A stretch of 24,637 nucleotides of DNA from a virus. The position numbers and the translations under genes were made by a program. How positions within the stretch are numbered: the first letter of the stretch is position 1; every line of letters starts with the position of its first letter. Below the pieces are notes generated by a model. The model saw nothing but the letters and a program-made list of their open reading frames with translations. It did not search any database and was not told the DNA's origin. Below are positions 897 to 22,310 of this stretch, in pieces. Where the stretch lies: the IMG/VR virus record IMGVR_UViG_3300017967_005797, positions 1-24,637 of that record; one strand, 5' to 3'.

Positions 897-903
897 AAAA
901 AAA

Positions 904-1674: not shown

Positions 1675-1676
1675 GA

Positions 1677-5374: not shown

Positions 5375-6138
5375 TTGTAAAGTACCACCTTATCGGTTTT
5401 CCAACTTTCGTTGTTATTTTTGTATTGTTGACTAACATCTTTTCTTTTTCCTTTCCAATGAACAATTTTTTCGGCGAGAATGGAATAAGGAAATACATGT
5501 AGACCCTTTTCCCCATTAGTTGGATTTAAATTCTTCTTTTTAATATCTTTTATACTATCAATAGCAACATCCCACGCAAATGCAGAATGCCATTCTTTTT
5601 GTTCAAAGATGGTATAGTCACAATACAGGCTTGCAAATTTGTTCATCGCTTCTCTAGTTTTTTCATTTAGTCTAATAGCAAAGAATCCTATTTCAGTGTG
5701 AATAGGTTTACGGAATAAAGACGCAACGTCATTATCACCCAATACATATTCTATCCATTCTTCATTAACATGATCGTGCGTTTCGCAATCAGCATCCATC
5801 CAAACTAGAATATCACCATCTTTCCAATGAGAATTCATATCGAGTACAGCTTTAGGTGTAATTCCTTGTGGCATCCATTTGATTGCATGAAATCTCCACA
5901 TTTCTGAATCTGGTACATTGTTAGGAATAATAGGATTCTTATTCCATTTCTCTAAAAAATTATTAAAATCTGGTATATCATTTAAGTTTAATAATTTAGA
6001 TCTTTCGAAAGGAAGTTCTCGATCTGTTACTGTTACTATTTCTATATCTTCTTCCCAATTTTCTGTGAAAGTTTTCGCGAAGGTTTCGCCGTATCTTTCC
6101 CAAGCATTACCATACATCAAAGTACATACTCTAATCAT
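5371..6138 (-). CDS. GT-A type glycosyltransferase, paralogue of 7780-8508
   Basis: A 255-residue protein with the nucleotide-sugar-binding pattern WMDADCE (DxD at Asp115 and Asp117). It shares whole blocks with the gene at 7780-8508: CTLM(Y/W)GNAWE at the start, FRKPxHTEIGF after the DxD, EWHSA(F/Y)xWD, NLNPTN and (Y/P)YSILAE-like text near the end. The two are therefore paralogues from a duplication, now separated by two other genes. Sugar donor and acceptor are unknown. The start overlaps the upstream stop (ATGA, 6135-6138) and the stop overlaps the FAD oxidoreductase start in the same way. Confidence 0.78.
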   Translation of the reverse strand: MIRVCTLMYGNAWERYGETFAKTFTENWEEDIEIVTVTDRELPFERSKLLNLNDIPDFNNFLEKWNKNPIIPNNVPDSEMWRFHAIKWMPQGITPKAVLDMNSHWKDGDILVWMDADCETHDHVNEEWIEYVLGDNDVASLFRKPIHTEIGFFAIRLNEKTREAMNKFASLYCDYTIFEQKEWHSAFAWDVAIDSIKDIKKKNLNPTNGEKGLHVFPYSILAEKIVHWKGKRKDVSQQYKNNNESWKTDKVVLYK

Positions 6139-7049
6139 AATGACCTCTTTTTTCTAATATAATCTCCATCTGGATGAACATCAATAAATTTTAATGTATT
6201 GAACTCATCTCTATAATATGTATACGCGCACATTTTTGTTATCCAATCGTCAACTTCTTTTTCCGTAAAATGTTTTATCTCTCCTTCACAAAATTCTTCC
6301 CAAGTAGTGCTAATTTCTCTAGCAGGATTATGTTCAGATGTTGTTATAACAGGTGCGCCTAAAACAACTACTTCTGAAGTAGCAGCTGTATATTGGCCAA
6401 TTAATAGATCACAAGATTCTCTAACATATTGATCAGATATTTGGTTTCTGTGTCTATTACTCATATCTATTTTATGTCTAACAATATAATCAAAACCTTG
6501 CCTATCGAGTTCGTTTCTTATTTTATTCACCCATTCTTCTGGAGTTTCATTGAAAAAATTTTTATGATTTTTTGCAGAAGATGGAATAATAAGTGCTTTC
6601 TTTTTCTTTAAAGGTTTTGTAGACTTTGTTTCACCCCAAAGTTCAGAAATATCATTTATTAGACCTTCTGATTCAATATTTAATCTATTGTTTACTCTAT
6701 CTCTATGAGATACATCTACAGGACAATTGGGGTTCATATTCCATCTGTTGTAAGTTATTCTATGCCATAATTTATGACCTATTTTATTCGATGGAGAAAC
6801 ATAACGAAGCCAAGGTAACATTGTGTTATCAAACCAAAAAAATTTAAAGTCTTTCGGTTCTTGGTCGGGTTTAAACATTGTGTCTGGTTCACAACCTGTA
6901 AGTACATAAACATCTTCAAAATTTTTAATTTCTGATGGAGATATTCTATGTTTATTTTCTCTCCAATCGTTTCCTTGATAGTTAGGGTCTATCTTCCAAT
7001 AACCCCAACCTACTCCCTTCATACTAAAAGGATCCATAGGATGTGTCAC
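6135..7049 (-). CDS. Putative glycan-synthesis protein, GT-B-like C-terminus
   Basis: A 304-residue protein I cannot place in a named family. The N-terminal part is rich in Trp, Tyr and Asn (GVGWGYWKIDPNYQGNDW). The C-terminal half resembles a nucleotide-sugar-binding Rossmann domain of GT-B enzymes: KALIIPSS as a first strand, then CDLLIGQYTAATSEVVVLGAPVITT, where small residues precede a proline-containing turn. The start is GTG at 7049, overlapping the upstream stop as GTGA; an ATG at 7037 is the alternative. Location among four glycosyltransferases supports a role in glycan assembly, but the reaction is unknown. Confidence 0.6.
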   Translation of the reverse strand: MTHPMDPFSMKGVGWGYWKIDPNYQGNDWRENKHRISPSEIKNFEDVYVLTGCEPDTMFKPDQEPKDFKFFWFDNTMLPWLRYVSPSNKIGHKLWHRITYNRWNMNPNCPVDVSHRDRVNNRLNIESEGLINDISELWGETKSTKPLKKKKALIIPSSAKNHKNFFNETPEEWVNKIRNELDRQGFDYIVRHKIDMSNRHRNQISDQYVRESCDLLIGQYTAATSEVVVLGAPVITTSEHNPAREISTTWEEFCEGEIKHFTEKEVDDWITKMCAYTYYRDEFNTLKFIDVHPDGDYIRKKRSL

Positions 7050-7783
7050 TGGCCATAACCTCCATATTCAACTTTATTTTCTAGTAGTGACTCATCAAAA
7101 GGATAAAACCACCTTGCTTCGTCAAATGCATCCCAAAACAAATCAACCAAATCTTTTCTTGGGTGTTCCTCTGGTACACCTTTAAACCATTCTGGTTGCC
7201 AAGGTTGTGTTGGCATATGTGTATAGTGAAGAATCCAAAATGGATCTACATCACCATCATGGCTATTCCATCTTGGATCCAAATCACCAACGACATTATT
7301 TTGTATCATTAATTGTATATATTGTTGATGAAAATGATCTACATGTTTCCATTGTTCAGATGGTTGCATGACACCTTTCCATCTAACACAATCGAATAAC
7401 ATCACACAAAACTCTTTACCACCAAACCTTTTACCATCTCTCGCAAGACATAGTTTGCCTTCAGGTATTTCCAAATCAAATAGGTCGCCAATGTCACGGA
7501 AGTTTAACATATCTACATCAGTGTAAATAGCCTTACCTTCAAAGTTACAATATTCCGGAATACCCCAACGAAAACCACTGAACGGTGTTGACCATTGTTT
7601 ATCGTTCCATCCATGCCAAAACTTGTTCTTTTCGTTTAGTCGTGCGTCATTGACTTTACGCATCCATACAATTTCTAAATCTCTTGACGTGTTTTTCCTA
7701 AGAGTATGTTCGTATGCTGCTTCTGCTTTAAAATCTTCGCCATTGGCTGAGGTGCCAATAAACATTCTAACCTTGTCATTCAT
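7046..7783 (-). CDS. GT8-like glycosyltransferase
   Basis: A 245-residue GT-A type enzyme. It starts NDKVRMFIGTSANGED, a first strand common in GT8-like proteins, and has the metal-binding DxD as IYTDVDML. PFSGFRWGIPE before it and WILHYTHMPTQPW near the end are motifs of the same group (acceptor-side His and Trp). The open frame continues to a TTG at 7789, but the ATG at 7783 overlaps the upstream stop as ATGA and is the better start. It is related in fold, not closely in sequence, to the enzyme at 2627-3316. Confidence 0.78.
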   Translation of the reverse strand: MNDKVRMFIGTSANGEDFKAEAAYEHTLRKNTSRDLEIVWMRKVNDARLNEKNKFWHGWNDKQWSTPFSGFRWGIPEYCNFEGKAIYTDVDMLNFRDIGDLFDLEIPEGKLCLARDGKRFGGKEFCVMLFDCVRWKGVMQPSEQWKHVDHFHQQYIQLMIQNNVVGDLDPRWNSHDGDVDPFWILHYTHMPTQPWQPEWFKGVPEEHPRKDLVDLFWDAFDEARWFYPFDESLLENKVEYGGYGQ

Positions 7784-8508
7784 TTCCAACTTACCGTTTT
7801 CTTTAAATCGCCTTTATTATGTATTAACCTTTCTGCAAGTATCGTATAAGGATAAACATGATCACCCGGCCTTTTTTCATTTGTAGGATTTAAATTTATC
7901 AATTTCAAATCTTCAACACTTTCTAATGCTTTATCCCAAACATATGCAGAATGCCATTCATCGAAGTCGAAAACATCTCCGTTTATATAATAATCACTAA
8001 AAGTTTTTAAAACTTTTCTAGTCGATTCGTTCAAACGCATAGCATAAAAACCAATTTCTGTATGTTTTGGTTTTCTAAACAATGCAGCAACATCACCATC
8101 TTTTAAAATACTTTGAATCCATTCTTCATTAATCGAATTCGTCGCGAGTGTATCTGCGTCTAGCCATACAAAAATATCACCATCTACCCAATGTTTATTA
8201 TATTCAAGAACAGCGTTTGGTGTTAAAGCTTGTGGTAACCATTTCTTCCAATCAAACTTCCAAAATTTGTCTGGCGGTGAACTGGGGTAAGTCGGGTTAT
8301 GTTTTTTTAAAATTTTTAGATATTCGGTAACATCTTCAAGAACTATGTTTTTTGCTCTTTGAAAGTTAATTTTTTCAAATATTTTTTTATCGACTACGTT
8401 ATAAATTTCTATATCTTCACTACAATGAATTGAAAATGTGTGTGCAAAAAATTGACCGTATTCTTCCCAAGCATTACCCCACATTAAAGTACATATTCTA
8501 ACACTCAT
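7780..8508 (-). CDS. GT-A type glycosyltransferase, paralogue of 5371-6138
   Basis: A 242-residue protein with the DxD pattern WLDADT (Asp117, Asp119). It matches the gene at 5371-6138 in order and spacing of its conserved blocks (CTLMWGNAWE, FRKPKHTEIGFYAMRLNE, EWHSAYVWD, NLNPTN, YTILAE), so both have the same fold and probably related but not identical acceptor or donor preference. Divergence is greatest between residues 40 and 85, before the DxD. The ATG overlaps the FkbM stop (ATGA, 8505-8508). Confidence 0.78.
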   Translation of the reverse strand: MSVRICTLMWGNAWEEYGQFFAHTFSIHCSEDIEIYNVVDKKIFEKINFQRAKNIVLEDVTEYLKILKKHNPTYPSSPPDKFWKFDWKKWLPQALTPNAVLEYNKHWVDGDIFVWLDADTLATNSINEEWIQSILKDGDVAALFRKPKHTEIGFYAMRLNESTRKVLKTFSDYYINGDVFDFDEWHSAYVWDKALESVEDLKLINLNPTNEKRPGDHVYPYTILAERLIHNKGDLKKTVSWK

Positions 8509-9122
8509 TTATAAAACCAATCCTCAACTTCTTGATGTTCGCCAAAATTTTCTTCATATAATTTATATCCATAATCAAACATCATTTCTCTAATTCGGCT
8601 ACGACGAGAATCATCATATCTATTTTCCCAATTACCTGATTCTATAGTCCATAAACCGACTTCATAGTCCCATTTAAATCCTTCAAAAGCATCTTCTTCT
8701 GCGCCTTCAACATCCATACTTATATAATCTATGTATTTTGGAGCATTATGTTCTCTAAGCAAATCAGATAGGGTAACTGTTTCTACCATAACAGGTGTTT
8801 GGTGTGTGAACCTATCTTGATATATTGATCCAAGTCCATTTCCCGCTGCTGAAATATAAAAACTTAGATTTTGTTTAGACGATTTATAAATTGCACGATA
8901 ATCTTTAACACTATTATTTCTTTCACAGTTTACTAATTTATGAATATTCTGCGGTGAACATTCAAGTAAAATTCCTTTCCAATTAAGTTTCTTTTCTAGG
9001 TAGTATCCATTAGAAGTTTTGATTCCATCTCTTGCGCCAAGTTCTACAAAATAACCGTCGCGTTTTCCTTTTGTCATTTGTTCAACCCAAAGGTCTTGTT
9101 TAAATTGTGATTTACTATTCAC
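8505..9122 (-). CDS. FkbM-family methyltransferase
   Basis: A 205-residue SAM-dependent methyltransferase of the FkbM family, often involved in O-methylation of glycans or polyketides. Visible hallmarks are SQFKQDLWVE at the N-terminus, the SAM-binding YFVELGARDG (24-33), WKGILLECSP (beta2 acidic end) and IDYISMDVEGAEEDAFEGF. The start is GTG at 9122, overlapping the upstream gene by eight bases. An ATG at 9077 exists but would remove the conserved SQFxQD block, so GTG is preferred. It sits between a GT25 and a GT-A enzyme. Confidence 0.87.
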   Translation of the reverse strand: MNSKSQFKQDLWVEQMTKGKRDGYFVELGARDGIKTSNGYYLEKKLNWKGILLECSPQNIHKLVNCERNNSVKDYRAIYKSSKQNLSFYISAAGNGLGSIYQDRFTHQTPVMVETVTLSDLLREHNAPKYIDYISMDVEGAEEDAFEGFKWDYEVGLWTIESGNWENRYDDSRRSRIREMMFDYGYKLYEENFGEHQEVEDWFYK

Positions 9123-9858
9123 TTACTTTTCCTCTAATAAAACCAGGAGTTTCGTATAGATTATAAGTTGGTTGAGTTTTAGGACCTTTTGATCTACCTA
9201 CACTTGACTCCTTTTCTTTGCCTTCTCTCATATATGGAGCCACAACAACTGGTGGATCACACGCTTGCATTTTAAGATTTATATATTTTCCAACGTGGTG
9301 TTCTTTTAACCTAAGAAATATCCATTGATCTATACTATCACAAACTCCCAATGTTTCAACATGTTCAATTAATTTACGTGCGGTATTTGGAGAAATAGCA
9401 TATGCATGTGAACCAGCATGATGTTCTACTTCAAAAAAAGACATAGGTTCGCCGGGAAATTTATAACTCTGTAATGAAGATAATCTCGGACCCAGTAAAA
9501 CAATTTCATCATCTAGTACAGGTAAACCTAGAAAATTAACAACGGGCCTAGCATCATGCTCTAGAATAGCTACACCGACATTTAACTCAACACATAACCT
9601 CCACATAGCAATATGACTACAGAAATTAGACGCTGTTCCTGATCCATTTGGTCCGTGTTGACCATTAGTTAGTGTTGTTTTTTTTACATTTTGATCTGCA
9701 TAAGCTTTTTCAGAAACAACATGATCGTAATTGTTAAACGCAATATGTCCTAACTTATATTTCCTACACTCTTCTACAAATTCGGAATATTCTAATTTGG
9801 ATATTTCATTATTAGGCATATATCCATAAATAACTTTCGTTATCACATTTTCGTTCAT
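9115..9858 (-). CDS. Glycosyltransferase family 25 (LPS-type)
   Basis: A 247-residue protein with the GT25 signature: a cysteine-serine-histidine block NFCSHIAMWR (78-87) and then VAILEHDARP (97-105), which stands for the family's LEDDA metal-binding motif with His in place of the first Asp. Later HHAGSHAYAISPNTARKLI matches the usual G(x)YaIS..gA..L. GT25 enzymes are best known from lipooligosaccharide synthesis. The His substitution is conservative enough that I still expect activity. Its ATG immediately follows the stop of no upstream partner; the Fe-S carrier gene ends directly downstream in reverse order, with TAA at 9859 adjoining the ATG at 9858. Confidence 0.82.
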   Translation of the reverse strand: MNENVITKVIYGYMPNNEISKLEYSEFVEECRKYKLGHIAFNNYDHVVSEKAYADQNVKKTTLTNGQHGPNGSGTASNFCSHIAMWRLCVELNVGVAILEHDARPVVNFLGLPVLDDEIVLLGPRLSSLQSYKFPGEPMSFFEVEHHAGSHAYAISPNTARKLIEHVETLGVCDSIDQWIFLRLKEHHVGKYINLKMQACDPPVVVAPYMREGKEKESSVGRSKGPKTQPTYNLYETPGFIRGKVSE

Positions 9859-10358: not shown

Positions 10359-10639
10359 TATTGTGATACCATATGTTTGAATTCGTTTACAAGTGTCATG
10401 GTATAAACTCCGAGCAAAAAGATATTCATTACAATCAACGACCGATCTTGCCACATCATACCAACGACCGACCACGATAGAAAACAAACCAAACCCACAA
10501 TCATATTATAAGGAAAAAAATTTGCAGCACTTAATATCGCTGTAATGATACCTGTAATACTACCCAACCACTTTAACCACCAAGAAAAACCTTCTGATGG
10601 TGTAGCTTTCTCAACCGTGTTTGTTTCTATTTCTTCCAT
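10358..10639 (-). CDS. Small multi-span membrane protein (93 aa)
   Basis: Three hydrophobic segments are visible: WLGSITGIITAILSAANFF (about 24-42), MIVGLVCFLSWSVVGMMW (about 46-63) and LIVMNIFLLGVYTMTLV (about 68-84), with a WQDRS loop between the last two. The first 18 residues are acidic and polar. The pattern resembles small membrane proteins seen in marine phages (DUF6552-like by eye; not verified). Function unknown. Its 5' end overlaps the GIY-YIG gene by 29 bases in another frame, and its stop overlaps the next start by one base, so it belongs to the same transcript. Confidence 0.72.
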   Translation of the reverse strand: MEEIETNTVEKATPSEGFSWWLKWLGSITGIITAILSAANFFPYNMIVGLVCFLSWSVVGMMWQDRSLIVMNIFLLGVYTMTLVNEFKHMVSQ

Positions 10640-11060
10640 ATTCTCTGGCCTCCACTATATGTTTTGGTTTTCTTCTGTAGTTGCCAATGGTTTCGTTGTA
10701 CCATCCATCTTCTTCCAAAACATTATTCATAAACTGTTGTTTCACTTCCTCATAGTTACAATCACCTCTTGTAATATGAAGTGATACAATACGTCTTTCA
10801 AAATTCATCATACCATATTTTTGAATATCTTCCAAAAGTTGATTTGAACTTCCGTAGTATTCTTTCCAATCACTTTCGGTACGAACTCTCTTCTTTTTGC
10901 CACGAACTTTACGAATGTTATAGAAATACTTTCTACCAATGTATCTCTTATTGTTTAACTTATTCGTAATACAATAAACAAACCCTTCGAACTTTCCTAT
11001 CTGGTCTGTATCGAAGGGTTCGTTATTAAACAGCCAGGGATTGTCATATGTCAATCCCAT
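10611..11060 (-). CDS. GIY-YIG family nuclease, phage homing type
   Basis: A 149-residue nuclease of the compact GIY-YIG group found in T4-like phages. The two name-giving segments appear as GFVYCI (26-31) and RYIGRKYF (39-46, with Arg43 as likely catalytic residue); DWKEYYGSS (65-72) and the acidic helix NYEEVKQQF (102-110) follow at the usual spacing. A basic stretch KVRGKKKRVR lies between. There is no obvious separate DNA-binding domain, so target choice may rest on the core. It sits between the zinc-ribbon gene (10-base overlap) and a membrane protein gene (29-base overlap). Confidence 0.85.
   Translation of the reverse strand: MGLTYDNPWLFNNEPFDTDQIGKFEGFVYCITNKLNNKRYIGRKYFYNIRKVRGKKKRVRTESDWKEYYGSSNQLLEDIQKYGMMNFERRIVSLHITRGDCNYEEVKQQFMNNVLEEDGWYNETIGNYRRKPKHIVEAREYGRNRNKHG
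10977..11024 (-). repeat. Long inverted repeat inside the 5' part of the GIY-YIG gene
   Basis: AACCCTTCGA at 10981-10990 is exactly complementary to TCGAAGGGTT at 11011-11020. One mismatch outward, three more pairs form, giving 13 of 14 pairs around a 20-base loop. In the mRNA the stem covers about codons 13-28 of the nuclease gene. It could slow translation or be a processing site; no tract of T follows, so it does not look like a terminator. Confidence 0.7.
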
Positions 11061-11248
11061 TCTTCATCGTCTAGAGAATCGTCAAAATCAGGTTCCCATG
11101 GCATTTTATCTTCATCAAATACTTCTGTAGCCAAACTACCACAGAATGGACAATACTTTGATTCTTGTACTTCGTTATGATGGAGTTTAAACATTGCACC
11201 GCATTCGGTGCAGTTAAATGATTGTACTATGAGATCTTCATTTGACAT
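11051..11248 (-). CDS. Small zinc-ribbon protein with acidic tail (65 aa)
   Basis: Two CxxC knuckles, Cys13/Cys16 (CTEC) and Cys33/Cys36 (CPFC), spaced 16 residues apart, form a zinc ribbon. After it comes a very acidic tail (DEDKMPWEPDFDDSLDDEEWD style, residues 45-65). I start it at the ATG at 11248 because a strong AGGAG lies eight bases before it; an open frame to 11287 would run into nrdB. Small zinc ribbons with acidic tails often contact nucleic acid or a polymerase complex, but no specific role can be given. It follows nrdB by ten bases. Confidence 0.82.
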   Translation of the reverse strand: MSNEDLIVQSFNCTECGAMFKLHHNEVQESKYCPFCGSLATEVFDEDKMPWEPDFDDSLDDEEWD

Positions 11249-11258
11249 AGATTCTCCT

Positions 11259-12224
11259 TTATGTTGCCCAGACCTCCGACCAATCACCTGTCAAAGCGCC
11301 TTTGGCGTAATCGGTACTCCGATTCTCAAAGAACGATGTATGGATTGGTGCGTTGACCATTTCTTCTACCCAGGGTAATGGATTCTTTTTCACTTTAAAT
11401 ATACCTTTCATTCCCATTGAGATAAGTCTTCTATCTGCTATATATCTAACATAAGATTTTACTTCTTCTTCTGTTAGATTTTCCATTTGTCCCATTGTAA
11501 ATGCCAAATCAATGAACTTATCTTCTAGTTCTACCATCTTTGTTGCGATGGTATATATTTGGCTCTTTGTTTCGTCGTTCCATACTTTACGATTTTCTTC
11601 CACATATTCACGGAACAATCGAATCATACCTTCTGCGTGTTGCGTTTCATCTACAATCGACCATGTGACAATCTGACCCATGCCTTTCATTTTACCATGG
11701 CGTGGAAAGTTCAACAACATGATGAACGATGAGAACAACGCAAGACCTTCTGTAAAGGCACTTGTTGCAGCCACATTAATCGGAATCGAATCAGAGTTAA
11801 ATGATGTAAAGTAATCATGTTTCTCTTTCATCGCATCGTATTCGTAGAACTCATTGTATGTAGACTCAGGCATACCGAGTGTTTCGATCAGATGTGAGTA
11901 TGCTGCAATGTGTAGTGCTTCACGAGCCGCAAATCCAAGAAGCATCATACGAACTTCTGGTTGCGGAAAGTATGGAAGATAGTTATTCACATAACCAGAT
12001 GCTACATCAATATCAGACTGCGTGAAGAAGCGAAAAATCTGTGTAAGAAAATACTTCTCTTCCTGTGACAATCGATTCTTCCAATCCTTTACATCTTCCA
12101 ACATTGGAACCTCAGTATGTAACCAGTGAGATTGTTCGTGTGTGAGCCATGCGTCATAGGCCCATGGAAAACTAAACGGTTTGAAGTAAGGTCTTTCTTC
12201 TGTTAATCTAAACTGCTGCGCCAT
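11259..12224 (-). CDS. nrdB: Class I ribonucleotide reductase, beta subunit
   Basis: NrdB holds the metal-radical cofactor that starts ribonucleotide reduction by NrdA. The 321-residue protein has the expected helices with metal ligands: an acidic residue at 71 or 73 (TQSDIDV), Glu102-x2-His105 (REALH), Glu159 (AFTEG) and Glu193-x2-His196 (VDETQH). Tyr109, four residues after His105, stands where the radical tyrosine of class Ia/Ib enzymes lies, so a tyrosyl-radical type is likely. The C-terminus (SEVWAT) lacks the acidic tail of the E. coli protein, so docking to NrdA may differ. Unusually, nrdA is about 5 kb upstream rather than adjacent. The start overlaps the cupin gene by 22 bases. Confidence 0.94.
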   Translation of the reverse strand: MAQQFRLTEERPYFKPFSFPWAYDAWLTHEQSHWLHTEVPMLEDVKDWKNRLSQEEKYFLTQIFRFFTQSDIDVASGYVNNYLPYFPQPEVRMMLLGFAAREALHIAAYSHLIETLGMPESTYNEFYEYDAMKEKHDYFTSFNSDSIPINVAATSAFTEGLALFSSFIMLLNFPRHGKMKGMGQIVTWSIVDETQHAEGMIRLFREYVEENRKVWNDETKSQIYTIATKMVELEDKFIDLAFTMGQMENLTEEEVKSYVRYIADRRLISMGMKGIFKVKKNPLPWVEEMVNAPIHTSFFENRSTDYAKGALTGDWSEVWAT

Positions 12225-12979: not shown

Positions 12980-13324
12980 TTACCAACCGGAAGGTTTCTT
13001 TGTAACTACTGGCGGATTTGCCTTTTGTGCCACAGAATTTTCTAACTTCGTATTAAACTCAGCTTCGGTCATTTGTTCTTCGCCGTCACCAAACTTAACA
13101 CTCTTTACCCATTGTAACACTTGATCTTTTGTTAAAGATTCAAATGCCGTGAAGTCAGCTGCATCCGGTGCCGGCATTGTTTCAACACCAATACTGCGAA
13201 CACTCACACCATTTTCATCTACTGCTGTACATTCCCAGTGTACATTAGAAACTACATCAGTGAGTCCGTCTTGACTCTTTACTACATCCATTGTTAGGAC
13301 ATTCCAGGTCATTGTTACTGCCAT
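12980..13324 (-). CDS. Conserved small phage protein (DUF7936-like, 114 aa)
   Basis: The opening MAVTMTWNVLTMDV, then TDVVSNVHWECTAVDENG and later DFTAFESLTKDQVLQWVK, fits a family of about 100-residue proteins common in T4-like and marine phages (DUF7936 from memory, unverified). A beta-rich first half is followed by a helix with QWVK and a Lys/Pro-rich tail. The role is unknown; a virion or tail-associated place has been suggested by context for such proteins, but this window gives no support either way. A strong AGGAG ribosome site precedes the ATG. Confidence 0.75.
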   Translation of the reverse strand: MAVTMTWNVLTMDVVKSQDGLTDVVSNVHWECTAVDENGVSVRSIGVETMPAPDAADFTAFESLTKDQVLQWVKSVKFGDGEEQMTEAEFNTKLENSVAQKANPPVVTKKPSGW

Positions 13325-13442
13325 TTTCTTTCTCCTCTTCTACTTCATATACAAACTCATAAACAGGTTGTTCCTTTTCCTTCACGAAAAAGGACTTTAA
13401 CATATACCAATATAGGTATAAATACATTTTGATTTTTTTCAT
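13257..13442 (-). CDS. Possible small membrane-anchored protein (61 aa)
   Basis: The ATG at 13442 overlaps the upstream SGNH gene's stop as ATGA, and without this frame the 114 bases at 13325-13438 would be empty. Residues 6-19 are aromatic and hydrophobic (MYLYLYWYMLKSFF), followed by an acidic run (VYEVEEEKE). Its last 22 codons overlap the start of the next gene in another frame and have no family character, so the protein may serve mainly to carry ribosomes to that gene's start. Function unknown. Confidence 0.45.
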   Translation of the reverse strand: MKKIKMYLYLYWYMLKSFFVKEKEQPVYEFVYEVEEEKENGSNNDLECPNNGCSKESRRTH

Positions 13443-14299
13443 AGAAATCCTAAAACCTCTTTCGCAATTTTTTGGTGACCCTTTTCATTAGGGTGAAAAT
13501 CTCTATATTTAGGACATATAAGTTCACTCTCATCTAATTCTAGAATGTTTGCTCCTAATTCCTTTATGAGAGGCCAACCATAAAAATGTTCTTCATCTAT
13601 ATTTTGAAAATATGGATCTTTAATTAAGGTTGTAATTACTTTTAGTTTCATTTTTTTAAGTTGTAGTTTATCCTCTGAATCTCGATAGGTCATGATCGGC
13701 GGATCTCTTTGTTTAAAGATTTCAAAAAAAGGTATCATTGATTCTTCAACATTCATTAAAGGAAAAAATTTATATTTTATATTCCTGCTCTTTAGAAATT
13801 CTTGTAAAAGAAATATATTTCGTATGACGTTGAAAATATTTACTTTTCCGTAAGCAACTTTCTTTTCAAATTTCTGAATATCATCAAGATCCGGTAAGAC
13901 CCAACGAGCATTAATATCCATTAAATTGCCGCCTTTATTATTAACCGATTTTAAATCTTGGCCGGTGGGATCCCAATATCGAATTCTTTCTCTTGAGAAT
14001 TCTGATAGTCCTATCAAAACCATTTCTATATCATCATGGCCATTTTTGAATATATAGTTTATTGTACTATCCACAATACGTTCATTACTAAAACCACACA
14101 CAGCTAGATTAACTAATTTCAAATCCAATTGTTCAGATACAATTTCTGGCCATTTTTTATGTTTAGGCAATTTATATAATATATTACCATCTTTGTCACG
14201 ATTCATTTTTAGATTATTAGCAACTATTTCATGTGTATTATTACCAGTTGAAGTAAAACTACATCCCGATACCAATAATTTTTTCTTAGAAGACTTCAT
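13439..14299 (-). CDS. SGNH/GDSL-type hydrolase-like protein, copy 1
   Basis: A 286-residue protein with the block arrangement of the SGNH hydrolase fold: GCSFT (12-16, Ser14 as nucleophile), a CGFSNERI block that could supply the oxyanion-hole Gly and Asn, and FHPNEKGHQ near the end with Asp267 and His269. SGNH enzymes remove or transfer acyl groups on glycans and lipids; the substrate here is unknown. It is a tandem duplicate of the next gene upstream (14296-15066), with exact DNA repeats in between. The two overlap by ATGA (14296-14299). No signal peptide, so it should act in the cytoplasm or be packaged. Confidence 0.8.
   Translation of the reverse strand: MKSSKKKLLVSGCSFTSTGNNTHEIVANNLKMNRDKDGNILYKLPKHKKWPEIVSEQLDLKLVNLAVCGFSNERIVDSTINYIFKNGHDDIEMVLIGLSEFSRERIRYWDPTGQDLKSVNNKGGNLMDINARWVLPDLDDIQKFEKKVAYGKVNIFNVIRNIFLLQEFLKSRNIKYKFFPLMNVEESMIPFFEIFKQRDPPIMTYRDSEDKLQLKKMKLKVITTLIKDPYFQNIDEEHFYGWPLIKELGANILELDESELICPKYRDFHPNEKGHQKIAKEVLGFL
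14102..14155 (-). repeat. 54-base exact repeat, SGNH copy 1
   Basis: Identical to 14884-14937 at an offset of 782 bases. It encodes the shared block around KWPEIVSEQLDLKLVNLA. Further exact repeats are 14016-14047 with 14799-14830 (32 bases) and 14265-14294 with 15029-15058 (30 bases). Together they mark a recent tandem duplication, or gene conversion, limited to the conserved blocks. Confidence 0.95.
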
Positions 14300-15066
14300 C
14301 GTTCAATAAAATTCAAAATATCTTTTGCTATCATTTGATGACCTCTTTTATTAGGATGTCCATCCATTCCATCTTTTATGACATTCCTAGGTAAAGGAAT
14401 AAAAGATGGTTTTCCTCCAAGTTGTGTGAATACAGGCCAACCGTGAAAATTTTCTCCGTTTATTTGATTAAAAAATTCGTTATTAACAACTCTTCGAAAG
14501 AATTGTTTATTCGAATAGGACGAATGTATATTATCAAAACGTAATAAAGAGAAAAATTTATGTTCGATATTCCTAATTTCTAAAAATTCCTGTAAAAGAA
14601 ATATAGTTTTAATATCTTGTTCGATTTTCACTATTCCGAATTTTTTTCGAAATTCTTGCCATAAACTAAGATCATCCTGCGGCCGGCCGCCGGTTCTCCA
14701 TGTAGTAATATTCATTTTATATTTTTCAGGGGGTTTAAAATATGAGGTCTTGTCAGCAGTTTCAAAAAGAAACCTGTTAAATTCTGTCCATCCTACTAAA
14801 ACCATTTCTATATCATCATGGCCATTTTTTAAAATATATTCCATTAAAGATTCTGCTATTCTTTCGTTCGAATTTCCACACCTAGCTAGATTAACTAATT
14901 TCAAATCCAATTGTTCAGATACAATTTCTGGCCATTTCTTAAATCTGTAATCATAACCTTCTAAATATTCACCATGAACTTCTTTTATTGGAACGTGAGA
15001 ATGTTCTCCAGATGCTGTGAAACTACAACCCGATACCAATAATTTTTTCTTAGAAGACCCTAACAT
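14296..15066 (-). CDS. SGNH/GDSL-type hydrolase-like protein, copy 2
   Basis: A 256-residue paralogue of 13439-14299. Shared blocks include SSKKKLLVSGCSFT (Ser15), KKWPEIVSEQLDLKLVNLA, CGNSNERI, GHDDIEMVLVG and the terminal DGHPNKRGHQ (Asp235, His237). The middle third is diverged and shorter, so the two copies probably differ in what they bind. Its ATG lies 17 bases inside the carbamoyltransferase gene's 3' end. An odd GC-rich 12-base palindrome interrupts its AT-rich coding sequence at 14679-14690. Confidence 0.8.
   Translation of the reverse strand: MLGSSKKKLLVSGCSFTASGEHSHVPIKEVHGEYLEGYDYRFKKWPEIVSEQLDLKLVNLARCGNSNERIAESLMEYILKNGHDDIEMVLVGWTEFNRFLFETADKTSYFKPPEKYKMNITTWRTGGRPQDDLSLWQEFRKKFGIVKIEQDIKTIFLLQEFLEIRNIEHKFFSLLRFDNIHSSYSNKQFFRRVVNNEFFNQINGENFHGWPVFTQLGGKPSFIPLPRNVIKDGMDGHPNKRGHQMIAKDILNFIER
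14884..14937 (-). repeat. 54-base exact repeat, SGNH copy 2
   Basis: Partner of 14102-14155. Between the matching blocks the two genes differ strongly, which suggests that selection or conversion has kept the N-terminal half alike. Confidence 0.95.
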
Positions 15067-16378
15067 TGTATTTCCTTTGAAAGTTTAAAGAATCAGTTTC
15101 GTCATTTACTAATGGTTCATCCTTTATATTTAATGATGTATTTAGAATCATAGGACATCCGGTTTTGTTATACCATTCTTCCAATATAGGTCTAATCACA
15201 GACTCGCAATCTTTCTTTACTACCTGAACTCTTGCCGTTCCGTCAAAGTGTGTCACTGAACTATAATCATGTTTGGATTTTGCTACAAACTGCATGTATT
15301 CGTTCATAGGTCCTTCAAAATATTTATCAGCAAATTCTTCTAGTATTGCTGGAGCAAATGGTCTAAATTTTTGCCTTCTTTTGATTGTGTTTACCGTGTC
15401 TTTAATATCATAACGAGGGTCACCAATCAAAGAACGATTACCTAATGCCCTTGGTCCAAACTCAGCCTTTCCGTTAGCAACACCACATATTTTATGTTTT
15501 AATAAGTATTTTACAACATCGTGAGGGTTAATACTTCCTGTTATATTGTAACCTAAGTAAGCATTTTTCCATTCAATCTTCTCTTTTTTCACTAATGCAG
15601 CTGCACCCAAAGAACTTCCCGCATCACCAGGTGAAGGCATTATCCATATATTTTTGTTCTTAATCTTTGAATTTGCTACACAGTTTAACGCACATCCTCC
15701 CATTATAACTAAATTCTCATGTTTACATAAATCAACTAACTTCAAAAACTCATCTTCGTATAATTTTTGCGCTGACGCCGCTAAGTCTTCTTTTCTTGCT
15801 TCAGGTAATAAATTTCCAACACCCTTATGATTATTTCTATGTAATAAGAATTTTAAATCATGTATTGGTGAACCGTATGCAGCCATACCCATTGTAATAT
15901 ATTCATCACGATTGGGTTTTAAACCTATCCTCTGTGTTATCGCTGAATAAAATAGACCCAGAGAGTATGGATACCACCAAGAACTTATTTTCTTTAACTT
16001 GTTATTTTCTCCTCGCCATATAGAAATGGTATCCCATTCTCCTATTGCATCAACTATGAGTATATCACATGTGTCAAACTTTGATGTATAATATCCTGCA
16101 GCGGCATGTGATTCATGGTGGCCAAATGTAAAATCATACGATTCTTCCTGCTTTTTCCACTTCTGCCCAAAAATCAGACGCCTAAAATTCTTTTTAAAAC
16201 TTTTTTCATAGAAAGCAGTAACATCAGGTTTATAAAAACGTTTTAAATCTATAGAAATTTCTTTATCATTTTTAACTTTACTATACCTTTCTGCGTGAGA
16301 AGCAAAAAGTATTTTATTATCTTTTAAAAAAGTAAAAGCAGCGTCATGATATCCTTTTGAAATTCCTAATGTAATCAT
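15050..16378 (-). CDS. Carbamoyltransferase, NodU/CmcH family
   Basis: A 442-residue O-carbamoyltransferase, which moves a carbamoyl group from carbamoyl phosphate through an ATP-dependent carbamoyl-adenylate onto a hydroxyl, often of a sugar. Motifs in order: GISKGYHDAA (5-14), FGHHESHAAAGYY (85-97) with the metal-binding His pair, IVDAIGEWDT (108-117), MGGCALNCVAN (226-236), EFGPRALGNRSLIGDPR (306-322), FRPFAPAIL (338-346) and NTSLNIKDEPLVN near the end. It is shorter than NodU (about 560), but the C-terminal end (RKYNVRVF) looks natural. It overlaps the radical SAM gene by ATGA (16375-16378). Substrate unknown; a phage or host glycan is the likely acceptor. Confidence 0.9.
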   Translation of the reverse strand: MITLGISKGYHDAAFTFLKDNKILFASHAERYSKVKNDKEISIDLKRFYKPDVTAFYEKSFKKNFRRLIFGQKWKKQEESYDFTFGHHESHAAAGYYTSKFDTCDILIVDAIGEWDTISIWRGENNKLKKISSWWYPYSLGLFYSAITQRIGLKPNRDEYITMGMAAYGSPIHDLKFLLHRNNHKGVGNLLPEARKEDLAASAQKLYEDEFLKLVDLCKHENLVIMGGCALNCVANSKIKNKNIWIMPSPGDAGSSLGAAALVKKEKIEWKNAYLGYNITGSINPHDVVKYLLKHKICGVANGKAEFGPRALGNRSLIGDPRYDIKDTVNTIKRRQKFRPFAPAILEEFADKYFEGPMNEYMQFVAKSKHDYSSVTHFDGTARVQVVKKDCESVIRPILEEWYNKTGCPMILNTSLNIKDEPLVNDETDSLNFQRKYNVRVF

Positions 16379-17382
16379 CTTGTATAACTATCTAATAACC
16401 AGTTCTTTATCTGTTTTTCAACTAAGTTGTGCATCACAGGATAGTTTTTTCTATGCCGCATTTTGAATAACTGTTTATGTAATGTTTTATAGATTAAATT
16501 TAACTCATCTGTACTTAGATTCCACAAAGCACATGATTCTGGCTCCAATATTGTATTGTACCATAAACCCACATCATTTTCATGAGACCATTTTCCTATA
16601 TCTAACATTTCGTCCCAATTTTGTCTCATTGGATTTACTGCTATGGTTAGATTTCTTTTTCTTTCTTTACAATAGTTGTTGAAATATTCAAAATTAGCCA
16701 ACCATTTATCTAAATTACCATTCACCCTTATTTTTTCATATCTTTCCTTTATCAAACTATCGACAGATATATTCAATATCACATTAGTTTTTTCTAATAA
16801 GTCTTTAACCTTTTTTGTTAGAACAGTACCATTGGTAGCAAATGATACTCTACAGGCAGGATTCATTTCCGAAATGTCTTCACATATATCATAAACTAAT
16901 TTGTGTGTGAAAGGTTCACCTCCGTTAAATCGTATTTCCTCCAAATGAGGTATGAACTCTTTTAATTGTTCTCTTAACGCGTCATTGTATACCTGTTTGA
17001 TTGGTTCTAATTTATCTCTATTTTTCCTTATACTCGAGCTCTTAACCCCATCACACATAATACATTCTAAATTACAAATATTACTTATTTCCACCTCTAA
17101 CAATGAAGGATATTTTTTAACGGTAAATTTATCATAAGCGTTGGCTAAACACAATTCACCATTATCTCTTTGTTTCTTACAATTAAGGCAAGTATCGACA
17201 TATTCTTCGTTTTTTAATTGAGTTCTTTTATTTTCAAATTTTTCACCGAACCATATATCACTCAGTCCTTTTTCTTTACTCCAATGATCTATAGAATAAC
17301 GATCTGTACTTAACCCCCAACAAGGTGTAACAAAACCTTTTAAACCAAGGTACATATTATTACTAGGCGCTTTACAAAACAT
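16375..17382 (-). CDS. Radical SAM protein with N-terminal twitch-like cysteines
   Basis: A 335-residue radical SAM enzyme. The [4Fe-4S] motif CxxxCxxC is Cys103/Cys107/Cys110 (CNLECIMC), followed by RFNGGEPF (the GGEP SAM-binding motif) and SFATNGT. Before the core are Cys3 and Cys21 with Gly16 at a spacing like the first half of a SPASM/twitch domain, then Cys65, Cys68 and Cys78, suggesting a second cluster. Phage proteins of this N-terminal type are annotated as twitch-domain radical SAM proteins. The reaction and substrate are unknown; peptide or sugar modification is typical of the group. A purine-rich AAGGG lies before the ATG. It is coupled to the carbamoyltransferase and comes four bases after nrdA. 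Confidence 0.88.
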   Translation of the reverse strand: MFCKAPSNNMYLGLKGFVTPCWGLSTDRYSIDHWSKEKGLSDIWFGEKFENKRTQLKNEEYVDTCLNCKKQRDNGELCLANAYDKFTVKKYPSLLEVEISNICNLECIMCDGVKSSSIRKNRDKLEPIKQVYNDALREQLKEFIPHLEEIRFNGGEPFTHKLVYDICEDISEMNPACRVSFATNGTVLTKKVKDLLEKTNVILNISVDSLIKERYEKIRVNGNLDKWLANFEYFNNYCKERKRNLTIAVNPMRQNWDEMLDIGKWSHENDVGLWYNTILEPESCALWNLSTDELNLIYKTLHKQLFKMRHRKNYPVMHNLVEKQIKNWLLDSYTR

Positions 17383-17385
17383 TTT

Positions 17386-19176
17386 TTACCCTTCGCAGGC
17401 CAGACATTCTTCGTTGTTTACCATTGCGCTCATATCTAGCTCTTGAATGATTTGTCTTTCGATTTTCTTAGAAACTCTATCTGCTTTACCAATCTTTTCA
17501 CTACGACAATAATAAAGTGTTTTCAAACCTTTCTTCCATGCGAGGTAGTGTACCGCATGAAGGTATTTTATGTCTGCATTTGGTCGAAAGAACAGATTGA
17601 TTGATTGTGCTTGATCTATATATTCTTGCCGATCAGCCGCGTGTTCAATCAACCATCTTTGATCTATCTCCATACTTGTTTTGAAAACTTCTTTTTCGTA
17701 GTCGTCTAAACATCTCAGGTGTTGTACAGAACCATCATTTGAAACGATAGAGGACATAATTCTATCGAAGTCCAAGCTTTCATTCTCCGCACACTTTTGT
17801 TTTAATAACTCAACCAAATACTTATTCTTATTCATGTAAGAACCGCTCAAAGTATCCTGTCGATATGCATTAGCACGAAATGGTTCTACACTTGGTGATG
17901 TATTACCCATGATGATAGATGATGATGCGTTTGGTGCAATGGCTCGCATATGTGAAAACCTTTTCTTATAACCTTTCGCATCTGGTGCCTCGCCTCTTTC
18001 AACAGCTAATCTTTCATTTGCATAATCTAAACCTTCTTTAATGTGTTTTGCAATACGCATGTTCAATGACTTAGCCATTGCAGATTCAAATGGAATCATT
18101 TTGCTCTGTAACAAAGCGTGCCAACCGAGTTCACCAATACCAATACTGCGTTCACGCATTGCAGAATATTTTGCCCGAGAGATTTCGTTTGGTGCATTAT
18201 CGATAAAGTATTGTAGAACATTATCTAACATTTCAGCCACATCAAAAAGGAATTTTTTATCTTTTGACCACTCATCAAAATACTCAAGATTTACCGAAGA
18301 CAAGCAACAAACTGCTGTACGCTTTTCATCTGTTGGCAAAATGATTTCAGAACACAGATTGCTTTGTTTTACAGACAAACCTTTCTTCTTTAGCCACTCA
18401 GGCAGTTTTTCGTTAGATCGATCAATGAAGTGAATGTATGGTTCACCCGTCTGCATTCTCATTTCAAGAATACGCTGCCACAATTCTTTTGCTGACACTA
18501 CTTCACGAACTTCATCATTATGTGGATCAACCAGTTCCCATGAATCATCGGCCGATGGATCTGTCATACAGTTTTCTACTTTCTGCATAAACGCATCGCT
18601 GATGTTAATACCATGGTGTAGATTCAAGCATCGTAGATTCTGGTCACCAGTTGGTTTACGCATTTCAAGAAACAGTAAAACATCTGGGTGTGAAATGTCA
18701 AGATACGCAGCATAAGAACCACGGCGAGTTTTACCTTGACGATAAGCCAATGAAGATGCATCGTACATTTTCAAGTGTGGCATTACACCAGTGGATTTTT
18801 CGCCTGCACTACGAATACCAAAACCAACACCGACACCACCACCAAGCATAGACAACCAGTTTGTTTCTGATAGGTTGTCAACAAGACCTTCAGCTGTATC
18901 TTCGATATAGTTAAGATAACAACTGATAGGTAAACCTTTTGAACTACGACCAAACGATAGAATTGGAGTAGAATAACTCAACCAATGTTTTGAACTGTAA
19001 TCATATAATCTTTGTGCGTGTTCACCGTCACTTGCAAACTGTCTCGATACAAACGCAAATCGTTCTTGTGGTGAGATTTCTGTTTCCGTCATGTACGATT
19101 CTTTTAAGCGACGAATGCCATATTCATCTATCAAAGAATCACGATTGGGGTCTATCGTAAGTCCGTGGTGTTCCAT
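17386..19176 (-). CDS. nrdA: Class I ribonucleotide reductase, alpha subunit (short form)
   Basis: NrdA reduces ribonucleotides to deoxyribonucleotides with NrdB. This protein has 596 residues against about 760 in E. coli, because it begins near the catalytic barrel and lacks the N-terminal ATP-cone, so dATP feedback inhibition is expected to be absent. Active-site residues are present: Cys86 (ISCYL) and Cys290 (AVCCLS) as the redox pair, Asn273, Cys275 and Glu277 in NLCSE with the thiyl Cys275, the radical-transfer pair Tyr-Tyr in LKTLYYCRS, and the C-terminal Cys591/Cys594 (CLAC) that is re-reduced by thioredoxin or glutaredoxin. AGGAG precedes the ATG. The nrdB gene is 5 kb away on the same strand. 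Confidence 0.95.
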   Translation of the reverse strand: MEHHGLTIDPNRDSLIDEYGIRRLKESYMTETEISPQERFAFVSRQFASDGEHAQRLYDYSSKHWLSYSTPILSFGRSSKGLPISCYLNYIEDTAEGLVDNLSETNWLSMLGGGVGVGFGIRSAGEKSTGVMPHLKMYDASSLAYRQGKTRRGSYAAYLDISHPDVLLFLEMRKPTGDQNLRCLNLHHGINISDAFMQKVENCMTDPSADDSWELVDPHNDEVREVVSAKELWQRILEMRMQTGEPYIHFIDRSNEKLPEWLKKKGLSVKQSNLCSEIILPTDEKRTAVCCLSSVNLEYFDEWSKDKKFLFDVAEMLDNVLQYFIDNAPNEISRAKYSAMRERSIGIGELGWHALLQSKMIPFESAMAKSLNMRIAKHIKEGLDYANERLAVERGEAPDAKGYKKRFSHMRAIAPNASSSIIMGNTSPSVEPFRANAYRQDTLSGSYMNKNKYLVELLKQKCAENESLDFDRIMSSIVSNDGSVQHLRCLDDYEKEVFKTSMEIDQRWLIEHAADRQEYIDQAQSINLFFRPNADIKYLHAVHYLAWKKGLKTLYYCRSEKIGKADRVSKKIERQIIQELDMSAMVNNEECLACEG

Positions 19177-20356: not shown

Positions 20357-20476
20357 TTACTCCTTATCACTATCAACAGGCAACATTTTCGCTATCGCCT
20401 TTGTGGTTATATAAAAAAGAAAAACATTTAGTGATATCAACACGAACTTTGTGATCCATAACCATGTTATAGTCAT
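20357..20476 (-). CDS. Small single-span membrane peptide (39 aa)
   Basis: Not in the usual length range of gene finders, but well supported: AGGAG lies before the ATG at 20476, and that ATG overlaps the HNH gene's stop as ATGA. The product has one membrane helix (WLWITKFVLISLNVFLFYI, residues about 5-23) and a short polar tail ending LPVDSDKE. Its stop is three bases before thyX. No family recognised. It may be a small regulator of a membrane protein, which is only a guess. Confidence 0.7.
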   Translation of the reverse strand: MTITWLWITKFVLISLNVFLFYITTKAIAKMLPVDSDKE

Positions 20477-21294
20477 ACTTTTTTGCTCCTTAATGTATCA
20501 CTTATTTTTGCTTTGTGTTTTTTCTTATATGGTCCGCGCTTTTTACCTTTCCTAGCAGCACTTAGTTTTGCTCTAGTTTCTTCCGAAAATTCTCTACCTT
20601 TAAGAGAAGCACTTAGTTTTGCTTTATGTTCTTCCGAAAGTTTTCTACCTTTATTCCAAGGTATATTATCTTTAAGAGAAGCACTTAGTTTTGCTTTAGT
20701 TTCTTCTGAAAGCGGTTTACCTTTCCTAGCAGCACTTAGTTTTGCTCTAGTTTCTTCCGAAAATTCTCTACCTTTAAGAGAAGCACTTAGTTTTGCTTTA
20801 GTTTCTTCTGAAAGCGGTTTACCTTTATTAGCAGCACTTATTTTTGCTTTATGTTCTTCCGAAAGCGGTTTACCTTTTTTACCTTTATTAGCAGCACTTA
20901 TTTTTGCCTTACTTTCTTCTGAATGTGGTTTACCTTTTTTACCTTTCCTAGCAGCACTTATTTTTGCCTTAGTTTCTTCCGAAAGTTTTCTACCTCTTAT
21001 AAAACCTTTTGGTTGTTCACCCTCAAATGTTAAAATACTTTCACTTCCATTATTATACCAAACTTTACCTTTTTTAGAAGCACTCTGTGTTTCTCTTATT
21101 ATTTCCTCTTTTCCTATGATTCCGGATAAACCTTGCCACGCGACTTTATCCTGCCAACGACCATACAAACCATACAATACTTTATGGGCAATGGCATGAT
21201 CTTCAACGGTGAGTTCTACAAGATTGTTTGAATCGTCGGTTCCTCCAGCGTGACGAGGAATGATATGATGTTTATGGGTTGGATAAATAGACAT
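20473..21294 (-). CDS. HNH homing-type endonuclease with many NUMOD3 repeats
   Basis: A 273-residue protein. The HNH core is at the N-terminus: HKHHIIPRHAGGTDD (His9, His10) with Asn24 and His33 (VEDHAIAH), as in phage HNH nucleases. From about residue 105 to 255 there are eight full copies of a 17-residue unit of the form GKPLSEETKAKLSASLK, plus a degenerate ninth; this is the NUMOD3 DNA-binding motif, which usually occurs one to a few times. I start at the ATG at 21294 rather than 21321 because the family begins there and it clears the primase gene. The gene probably inserted between the primase and a small membrane gene. At the DNA level the repeats include an exact 85-base duplication. 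Confidence 0.85.
   Translation of the reverse strand: MSIYPTHKHHIIPRHAGGTDDSNNLVELTVEDHAIAHKVLYGLYGRWQDKVAWQGLSGIIGKEEIIRETQSASKKGKVWYNNGSESILTFEGEQPKGFIRGRKLSEETKAKISAARKGKKGKPHSEESKAKISAANKGKKGKPLSEEHKAKISAANKGKPLSEETKAKLSASLKGREFSEETRAKLSAARKGKPLSEETKAKLSASLKDNIPWNKGRKLSEEHKAKLSASLKGREFSEETRAKLSAARKGKKRGPYKKKHKAKISDTLRSKKV
20542..20800 (-). repeat. 85-base exact direct repeat within the NUMOD3 array
   Basis: 20542-20626 is identical to 20716-20800, an offset of 174 bases or 58 codons. The repeat spans more than one NUMOD3 unit, so the array grew by duplicating blocks of units, not one unit at a time. The change is in frame and keeps the protein open. Confidence 0.95.
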
Positions 21295-21305
21295 GTTATA
21301 AAACC

Positions 21306-22310
21306 TTAGCAACGACTCCATCTAGAAATCTCTAAAAACAATGATGTACCATTGTATGTATTCTCTTGAATCAACCTCTGTACATCGTGTCCGTTCATTG
21401 TCATTTCATTTATATCCTTCTCGTTTATATTCTTTGGCCAAACAACAACCGGAAAATCTTTCTCCCAAGCCTTTATCATCTGTTGCCGTATCTCTTTGTT
21501 TCTCGGTTGATTGTCATAAACCAACACACATTGGTTCGGTGTATACTGCTTCTCAATTCTGCTCAAATCAGAGTTACCAACGGCAATCGCATTTGAAATA
21601 AACAAACTATCAAGTGGACCTTCTACCACATATATCGTTTCATTCTCGTTTACTCTATCAATACCATAGAGCAATGGAAATGGACTGAACTTTGCTGTGT
21701 AGTAACGAAAAGGACTTTCGTCTATGGCTCGACAAGTAACGCCTGAAAGATTTTTGTATTTATCAAAAAACGGAATTCCAAGTCGATTCTCCACCTTACC
21801 CTTCATGTTCAATTCAAAATGTTTTTCAATTGGTGAGAAGTCGTCTATGTAATATAGCCTACCGTAATGCTTTCTAGGTATCTCTCTTTTCGCACAGTAT
21901 ATATAACAAGAGTGGTCATGATCCAATTCTGAAACTTTCGTATAGTATTCATCCAATATATTTTCTTGGGAGAACTTCGGGGTAGAAAATTCAAAGTCAT
22001 TATTTTTCTTTTGAAAACTTTTATTTGGTGACTCTTTAAATTTCTCCAATTTGTATTGATCAAACAAATGTGGATTAATATCTTTTAAAAAGAAACTAAA
22101 TGACTTAGATGCCGAACAGTTATGACATTTATAAGTAAGGTTTTCTTTGTTTTGATACAAATAACCTCTAGCCTTACTCTTATTTGTTTTAGAGTCACCA
22201 CATATAGGACATCTAAAATTAGAAAGAAAAGGATTGTTTTGTTTTAAACTATATCTATCTAAATGAATTGATAATAAATTGGCATACTTCACATCGAGCC
22301 AAAGCATCAT
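21306..22310 (-). CDS. DNA primase, T4 gp61-like
   Basis: A 334-residue primase that makes RNA primers for the lagging strand, working with the T4 gp41-type helicase. The N-terminal zinc-binding domain is FRCPICGDSKTNKSKARGY...YKCHNC (Cys34, Cys37, Cys62, Cys65), the wording of the T4 gp61 family. The Toprim domain follows: YVVEGPLDSLF (Glu230, Asp234) and VLVYDNQPRNKEI (Asp266 with Asn267). Length matches gp61 (about 340). Two ATGs are adjacent at 22310 and 22307; GAGG lies five bases upstream. It is the first gene of the leftward transcript and is driven by the promoter at 22340-22368. Confidence 0.93.
   Translation of the reverse strand: MMLWLDVKYANLLSIHLDRYSLKQNNPFLSNFRCPICGDSKTNKSKARGYLYQNKENLTYKCHNCSASKSFSFFLKDINPHLFDQYKLEKFKESPNKSFQKKNNDFEFSTPKFSQENILDEYYTKVSELDHDHSCYIYCAKREIPRKHYGRLYYIDDFSPIEKHFELNMKGKVENRLGIPFFDKYKNLSGVTCRAIDESPFRYYTAKFSPFPLLYGIDRVNENETIYVVEGPLDSLFISNAIAVGNSDLSRIEKQYTPNQCVLVYDNQPRNKEIRQQMIKAWEKDFPVVVWPKNINEKDINEMTMNGHDVQRLIQENTYNGTSLFLEISRWSRC

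Follow-up and report, generated by a model that had tools for sequence, protein, structure and literature searches.

A recurrent carbamoyltransferase and SGNH gene cassette with an optional radical SAM enzyme in a virus DNA fragment and its relatives, and its candidate role in glycan tailoring

Background

Carbamoyltransferases of phages have been described in cyanophages (PMC3037559) and in connection with cytosine hypermodification (PMC8670742), and in pelagimyophages a variable host-recognition island combines tail fibres, glycosyltransferases and radical-SAM cassettes (PMC7029224). The authors of the latter report read the island glycosyltransferases as agents of O-chain modification against coinfection. 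Here, we describe a stretch of virus DNA of 24,637 bases (IMG/VR record IMGVR_UViG_3300017967_005797; hereafter the window), probably a fragment, which carries on its minus strand, at 13439-17382, a cassette of four genes for a radical S-adenosylmethionine enzyme (rSAM), a compact O-carbamoyltransferase (CT) and two proteins of SGNH type. The author of a preliminary description knew of no described phage system with this set. No description of the exact rSAM-CT-SGNH combination was found in the literature searched, so the claim stands for the exact set; in its broader sense it has to be narrowed, as islands with radical-SAM and glycosyltransferase genes (PMC7029224) and phage CTs have already been published.

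Organization of the cassette

The cassette is inserted between nrdA (17386-19176) and, on its other flank, nrdB (11259-12224), with the rSAM gene starting 3 nt past the nrdA stop. The rSAM gene (16375-17382; 335 aa; PF04055 and PF13186, with an N-terminal twitch domain) is followed by the CT gene (15050-16378; 442 aa; PF02543 and PF16861; NolO-like, phrog_1601), the gene for the hydrolase/acyltransferase-like SGNH-A (14296-15066; 256 aa; SGNH fold, catalytic S15-D235-H237) and that for SGNH-B (13439-14299; 286 aa), an apparent tandem duplicate of SGNH-A that keeps the GCSF and DFHPNEKGH motifs. As first proposed, the four reading frames are joined by short overlaps, namely a 4-nt ATGA between rSAM and CT, 17 nt between CT and SGNH-A, and again a 4-nt ATGA between the two SGNH genes. 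A 61-aa ORF on the same strand (13257-13442), whose start overlaps the SGNH-B stop (ATGA), is a possible fifth cistron. A scan for promoters and terminators gave no excess over shuffled sequences, and when the cassette region was compared with phage records at the DNA level, all 25 records listed matched via nrdA alone.

Recurrence and relocation of the CT-SGNH pair

Recurrence was counted on 70 distinct CT loci (labelled L###). An SGNH gene lies immediately downstream of the CT gene (within 150 bases) in 50 of them, and within 3 kb in a further 8. When the loci selected by CT were scored by gene position, SGNH occupied the +1 position in 49 of 61, compared with 0-1 at each offset from -8 to -1, an arrangement far beyond chance. 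The rSAM genes, a pooled class in this count that takes in several subtypes as well as split SPASM genes, are commonest at -1 (13/58) and -2 (11/55) from CT, with none at -6 to -8, and are present within -3 to +4 genes of CT in 26 of the 70 loci. CT-SGNH is the core of the cassette and rSAM is optional. The order N-twitch rSAM, CT, SGNH was found in one other clade (L067, L079 and L080), and a single-cell contig, AG-345-D19 (L004), has the different order SGNH, SGNH, CT, rSAM; the complete four-gene form is confined to the window's own lineage (L006 and L007). The neighbourhood search suggested in the preliminary description thus found the CT and SGNH genes together elsewhere, while the four genes as one set held only in part, with a recurrent core and an rSAM gene that comes and goes. 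We conclude that the set is real and recurrent and that it probably functions as a module.

The CT loci occur in at least three genome settings: behind structural or tail-fibre-type genes, beside gp46/gp47, and near thyX/nuclease genes. SGNH stands beside CT in 24/24, 11/17 and 7/7 loci of these settings, respectively. In the relatives, structural or tail-fibre proteins are encoded directly upstream and a hydroxylase downstream, structural/tail-type neighbours being present in 24 of 70. On the CT tree, the setting requires approximately 14 changes (minimum 3), the presence of SGNH next to CT 9, and the presence of rSAM approximately 15. The last figure, together with the tendency of variable regions in T4-like phages to gather unrelated genes, would suit an explanation by gene drift, in which CT and SGNH are simply inherited side by side within a variable region and do not work together. 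However, the pairing outlasts the changes of setting and has tight overlaps, and the catalytic residues are kept although the SGNH proteins are just ~22-33% identical to most relatives; we consider this explanation highly improbable.

The two partners diverge unequally. The median pairwise identity is 68% for CT and 31% for SGNH, and loci with CTs 90-97% identical may carry SGNHs just 35% identical, part of this SGNH spread possibly reflecting the comparison of different members of a tandem array. These values suggest a conserved catalyst (CT) with an exchangeable partner (SGNH).

A bacterial origin of the pair was considered and rejected: among the 80 best bacterial CT loci, an SGNH match was present in only one (L206, 20 bits). 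Apart from L149, the closest apparent bacterial case is L150, which seems to be a phage contig placed in a metagenome-assembled genome (MAG), its ThyX being 72% identical to a phage copy; it also has two GCSF-type proteins upstream of CT. The bacterial relative L149 adjoins reading frames that, by eye, resemble glycosyltransferases and a sulfotransferase.

The carbamoyltransferase

The CT matches Carbam_trans_N (PF02543, E 6e-37) and Carbam_trans_C (PF16861, E 3e-46) with 128 and 157 bits against Pfam cut-offs of 24 and 27, in the architecture of the NodU/NolO/TobZ superfamily (a Kae1-like N domain and a YrdC-like C domain). A PDB profile search matched NovN, GdmN and TobZ (E 1e-86 to 1e-66). 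In an alignment of 47 sequences, residues H87, H88, H91, D110, D252, R310, R315, R335 and R339 are invariant. Largely invariant too are HHxxH and EFGPRALGNRS, motifs of the metal/ATP/carbamoyl site that align to NovN and GdmN. IMG/VR contains 409 relatives, and the nearest bacterial CTs are 40-47% identical to that of the window. Judged by its sequence, the protein is a member of the TobZ/NodU O-carbamoyltransferase superfamily, for which carbamoyl transfer is predicted.

Such an enzyme might act on 5-hydroxymethylcytosine (5hmC) in phage DNA to give 5-carbamoyloxymethylcytosine, with the other enzymes elaborating the base. DNA hypermodification of this kind has an experimentally demonstrated precedent in the phage-type 5hmC carbamoyltransferase (PMC8670742), and the cassette has genes of nucleotide metabolism (nrdA, nrdB and thyX) around it. 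Nevertheless, the sites of 5hmC specificity, TobZ W408, G421 and R423, correspond to V300, G313 and R315 in the window (mapped by alignment offset), two of the three being canonical, whereas the published 5hmC enzyme has C and T where TobZ has G421 and R423 (PMC8670742). Both G313 and R315 are invariant in the 47 relatives. A thymidylate-synthase/hydroxymethylase-type gene (PF00303) was detected in 5 of 27 records, mostly fragments, and was not found in Mosig (~76% complete), HTVC008M or C48C1; the thymidylate synthase of the window is ThyX. TET/JBP was matched in 0 of 25 records, mostly fragments, by a weak search that returned no match in any control either. In addition, we know of no role of SGNH enzymes on bases. 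With this balance, we regard DNA as quite an unlikely target.

The SGNH pair

Attempts to name the SGNH proteins by PHROGs and Pfam gave just weak matches to DUF6071 and to tail-fibre tips; the DUF6071 (PF19547) scores were 25.4 and 22.3 bits, under the gathering cut-off of 27. An AlphaFold model that drew on 71 homologues from viruses (mean pLDDT 82.8) was more informative, and Foldseek with the SGNH-A model retrieved TesA/GDSL esterases (E ~1e-4, target-normalised TM ~0.65) as well as many unannotated viral proteins. The catalytic serine, whose absence from homologues would have spoken against the preliminary description, is conserved (Ser15 in 71/71), as are His237 (70/71) and Asp235 (65/71). 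In block III, W-[S/T]-E-x-x-R stands where GxND is expected, with Arg98 present in 71/71. The modelled fold, the block I Ser and the block V Asp/His place the proteins in the SGNH hydrolase superfamily, with the block III Asn absent. An obvious N-terminal signal sequence was seen by eye in neither protein, which argues for cytoplasmic work.

SGNH-A and SGNH-B are 39% identical (BLASTP) and are mutual nearest relatives (SH-aLRT 98), suggesting that SGNH-B is a lineage-specific tandem duplicate. Within-locus duplication as the general source of tandem SGNHs was rejected, as most tandem copies outside the window group nearest to copies from other phages. A search for close relatives of SGNH-A yielded just two contigs, both of the window's lineage, because the SGNH sequences change too quickly, and relatives were collected by way of the CT loci instead.

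The radical SAM enzyme

The rSAM protein has cluster ligands C103-C107-C110 (CxxxCxxC) and auxiliary-cluster cysteines C3, C21, C65 and C68. Across 33 homologues, the three ligands and C3, C21 and C65 are invariant, and C68 is conserved in at least 90%. Its core aligns to residues 5-109 of BtrN and its N-terminal domain to the C-terminal twitch of BtrN (163-241), so that the domain order is swapped relative to BtrN. The best named family, N_Twi_rSAM (NF033640), scored 139 bits, under the curated cut-off of 170. These sequence features place the enzyme in the radical SAM SPASM/twitch class. The structure model (pLDDT 93.9) matches SuiB, BlsE, viperin, MoaA, anSME and DesII in fold; spread over peptide, nucleotide and sugar enzymes, these modelled likenesses do not single out a substrate.

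NovN, GdmN and TobZ, the CT relatives of solved structure, act on small natural products, and BtrN is a cyclitol dehydrogenase. Such parallels would fit a small-molecule function, in which the enzymes make or destroy a signal, an antibiotic or a nucleotide analogue during infection and no polymer is involved. Export or resistance genes were not seen, however, and the quick turnover of SGNH and the loci of host-recognition type favour a surface or virion target, which makes a small-molecule function very unlikely in our judgement.

In relatives of the window, the rSAM enzyme is repeatedly split into a core protein (PF04055) and a separate SPASM protein of 92-137 aa. Of 5 stand-alone SPASM proteins tested, 4 scored above the PF13186 cut-off, and 46 distinct stand-alone SPASM genes were observed, with an rSAM core directly upstream in 41. 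Examples of core and SPASM genes are located at 6024-6755 and 6712-7074 in L080, at 6990-7676 and 7673-8008 in L074, and at 11026-11658 and 11654-11989 in the Pelagibacter phage Mosig (L002). The N-terminal, C-terminal and separate SPASM layouts share one kind of neighbourhood. No description of an rSAM with SPASM as a separate protein was found in the literature searched, and the split form may be the most unusual element of these loci. Radical SAM genes also occur three to six in a row in the phage contigs L107, L109, L113, L124, L130 and L138, and a 108-kb contig of a gammaproteobacterial MAG (G027:C3, comprising L150, L235 and L236) carries a CT gene and roughly eight radical SAM genes that score above the N_Twi cut-off.

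Genomic context and the glycan interpretation

The window can be placed among the T4-like marine phages because it harbors nrdA, nrdB, thyX, primase and homing endonuclease genes and has relatives in Kyanoviridae (Mosig, C48C1 and HTVC008M). Its glycan-type genes include those for a 3-deoxy-8-phosphooctulonate synthase (the Kdo-8-P synthase of Kdo synthesis; 871-1674, 316 bits) and a GT25-family (LPS-type) glycosyltransferase (9115-9858, minus strand; PF01755, E 1.1e-7), together with GT4, GT8, an FkbM-type methyltransferase, an SDR and a low-scoring WbuC-like cupin. The cassette may serve the glycan genes in 871-9858.

Phage CTs of wider kinship, those of Bellamy and HTVC008M, sit in nucleotide-sugar clusters. 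Because of these clusters, the glycan genes of the window and the pelagimyophage island, the target that we think likeliest is a glycan of the host surface or the tail fibre, and we hold it probable, with reservations, that the cassette is a swappable glycan-tailoring module. The observations comprise the gene set, its fold, the conservation of catalytic residues, the repeated linkage of the genes, their relocation and the difference in divergence; the reactions, substrate and target given next are inferred. The twitch rSAM would abstract H from the ring of a sugar or a similar molecule and so oxidise, epimerise or deoxygenate it, as do sugar rSAMs of the BtrN/BlsE/DesII type. The CT would make carbamoyl-AMP from carbamoyl phosphate and ATP, and the carbamoyl would then be put on a sugar hydroxyl, while the cytoplasmic SGNH pair might add or trim an ester group of the same glycan. 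Built by phage glycosyltransferases, the glycan would be displayed either at the host surface, for O-chain remodelling and superinfection exclusion, or on the tail fibre of the virion, and SGNH would be the fast-changing, exchangeable part deciding which decoration is made.

Several observations weigh against this interpretation. The cassette sits among nucleotide-metabolism genes, outside the glycosyltransferase run. No SGNH gene adjoins the more distant cyanophage CTs (S-SSM7, Bellamy and S-SSM5), and carbamoylation as such therefore does not depend on an SGNH partner. With the block III Asn missing, SGNH activity could be altered or lost, and the tail setting labels rest on weak PHROG matches of upstream structural genes. 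In addition, the rSAM profile resembles peptide-modifying enzymes too, and the best fold matches are the peptide maturases SuiB and SkfB.

The latter matches agree with modification of protein or peptide, that is, of side chains of a tail fibre or of a RiPP-like peptide. Crocagin biosynthesis offers a parallel: its SGNH-like CgnD frees the core, to which methyl and carbamoyl groups are added afterwards (PMC10070186). CgnD (8a2n), which shares its pathway with a carbamoyltransferase (PMC10070186), is among the SGNH-A fold matches, and Asp/Arg hydroxylase and 2OG oxygenase genes are located nearby in relatives, often after tail genes. The CgnD match is weak, however (rank 42, E 4e-3), and the window, like the surroundings of the wider phage CTs, is rich in glycan genes. 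No precursor peptide was noticed, although no systematic search was made, and the sole nearby candidate, the 61-aa ORF, has by eye no repeated core pattern. Thus, of the glycan or peptide modification pathway proposed in the preliminary description, the glycan version fits the neighbours (GT4, GT8, GT25, the FkbM methyltransferase and Kdo-8-P synthase) with activities that are predicted, and the peptide version is retained as an unlikely rival.

With regard to other neighbours, an A-type Fe-S carrier gene (PF01521; 9859-10155) on the same strand as the cassette might provide the radical SAM enzyme with clusters. A SegE-type GIY-YIG homing endonuclease gene is located near nrdB (10611-11060), and an HNH-type homing endonuclease gene with a many-fold repeated SEE[TH]KAK(I/L)SA motif lies between primase and thyX (20473-21321).

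Implications and comparison with known systems

If the glycan interpretation is right, the vague notion of LPS-like genes in marine phages would give way to a definable module with a CT core, a fast-changing SGNH and optional radical chemistry. Lytic marine phages would then remodel or build glycans with carbamoylation and radical oxidation, a chemistry known mainly from antibiotics, and there would be a handle on the high variability of such genes in phages of abundant ocean bacteria. More speculatively, and with considerable doubt, marine T4-like phages might share a mobile kit of a conserved CT, an exchangeable SGNH and an optional, sometimes split, rSAM, whose swaps alter surface or virion glycan chemistry as an arms-race device.

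Compared with TobZ, NovN, GdmN and NodU, the window CT shares both domains and the invariant metal-site-like His/Asp residues, but is ~130 residues shorter (442 versus ~570 aa), with the missing loops falling between conserved blocks, and belongs to a viral clade. It is phage-type and of the same superfamily as the 5hmC carbamoyltransferase (MetaGPA, PMC8670742), from which it differs at two of the three positions that tell the types apart; in most of the records, largely fragments, no linked hydroxymethylase was detected. The rSAM has in common with BtrN the CxxxCxxC core and a four-cysteine twitch, which is N-terminal in the window and C-terminal in BtrN. The SGNH proteins share the fold and Ser-Asp-His with SGNH/GDSL hydrolases (TesA and EstA), differ from them in a block III with an invariant Arg, and match DUF6071 weakly, below its cut-off.

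At the level of the locus, the pelagimyophage host-recognition cluster (HRC; PMC7029224) is likewise variable, marine and T4-like and has radical-SAM genes. The HRC lies between VrlC and gp14 with tail fibres, whereas the window cassette lies between nrdA and nrdB; carbamoyl genes are not mentioned in the text of PMC7029224, and no description of the CT-SGNH pairing was found. In the Pelagibacter phage Mosig EXVC030M (MT647606), a run of genes holds SGNH, an aminotransferase, rSAM, CT and a methyltransferase, including a split rSAM and SPASM pair, but its CT is ~29-33% identical to that of the window, the order is different and the SGNH is single. Taken together, the enzyme families have been described before, as has the general setting, and the exact combination is a variant of described islands.

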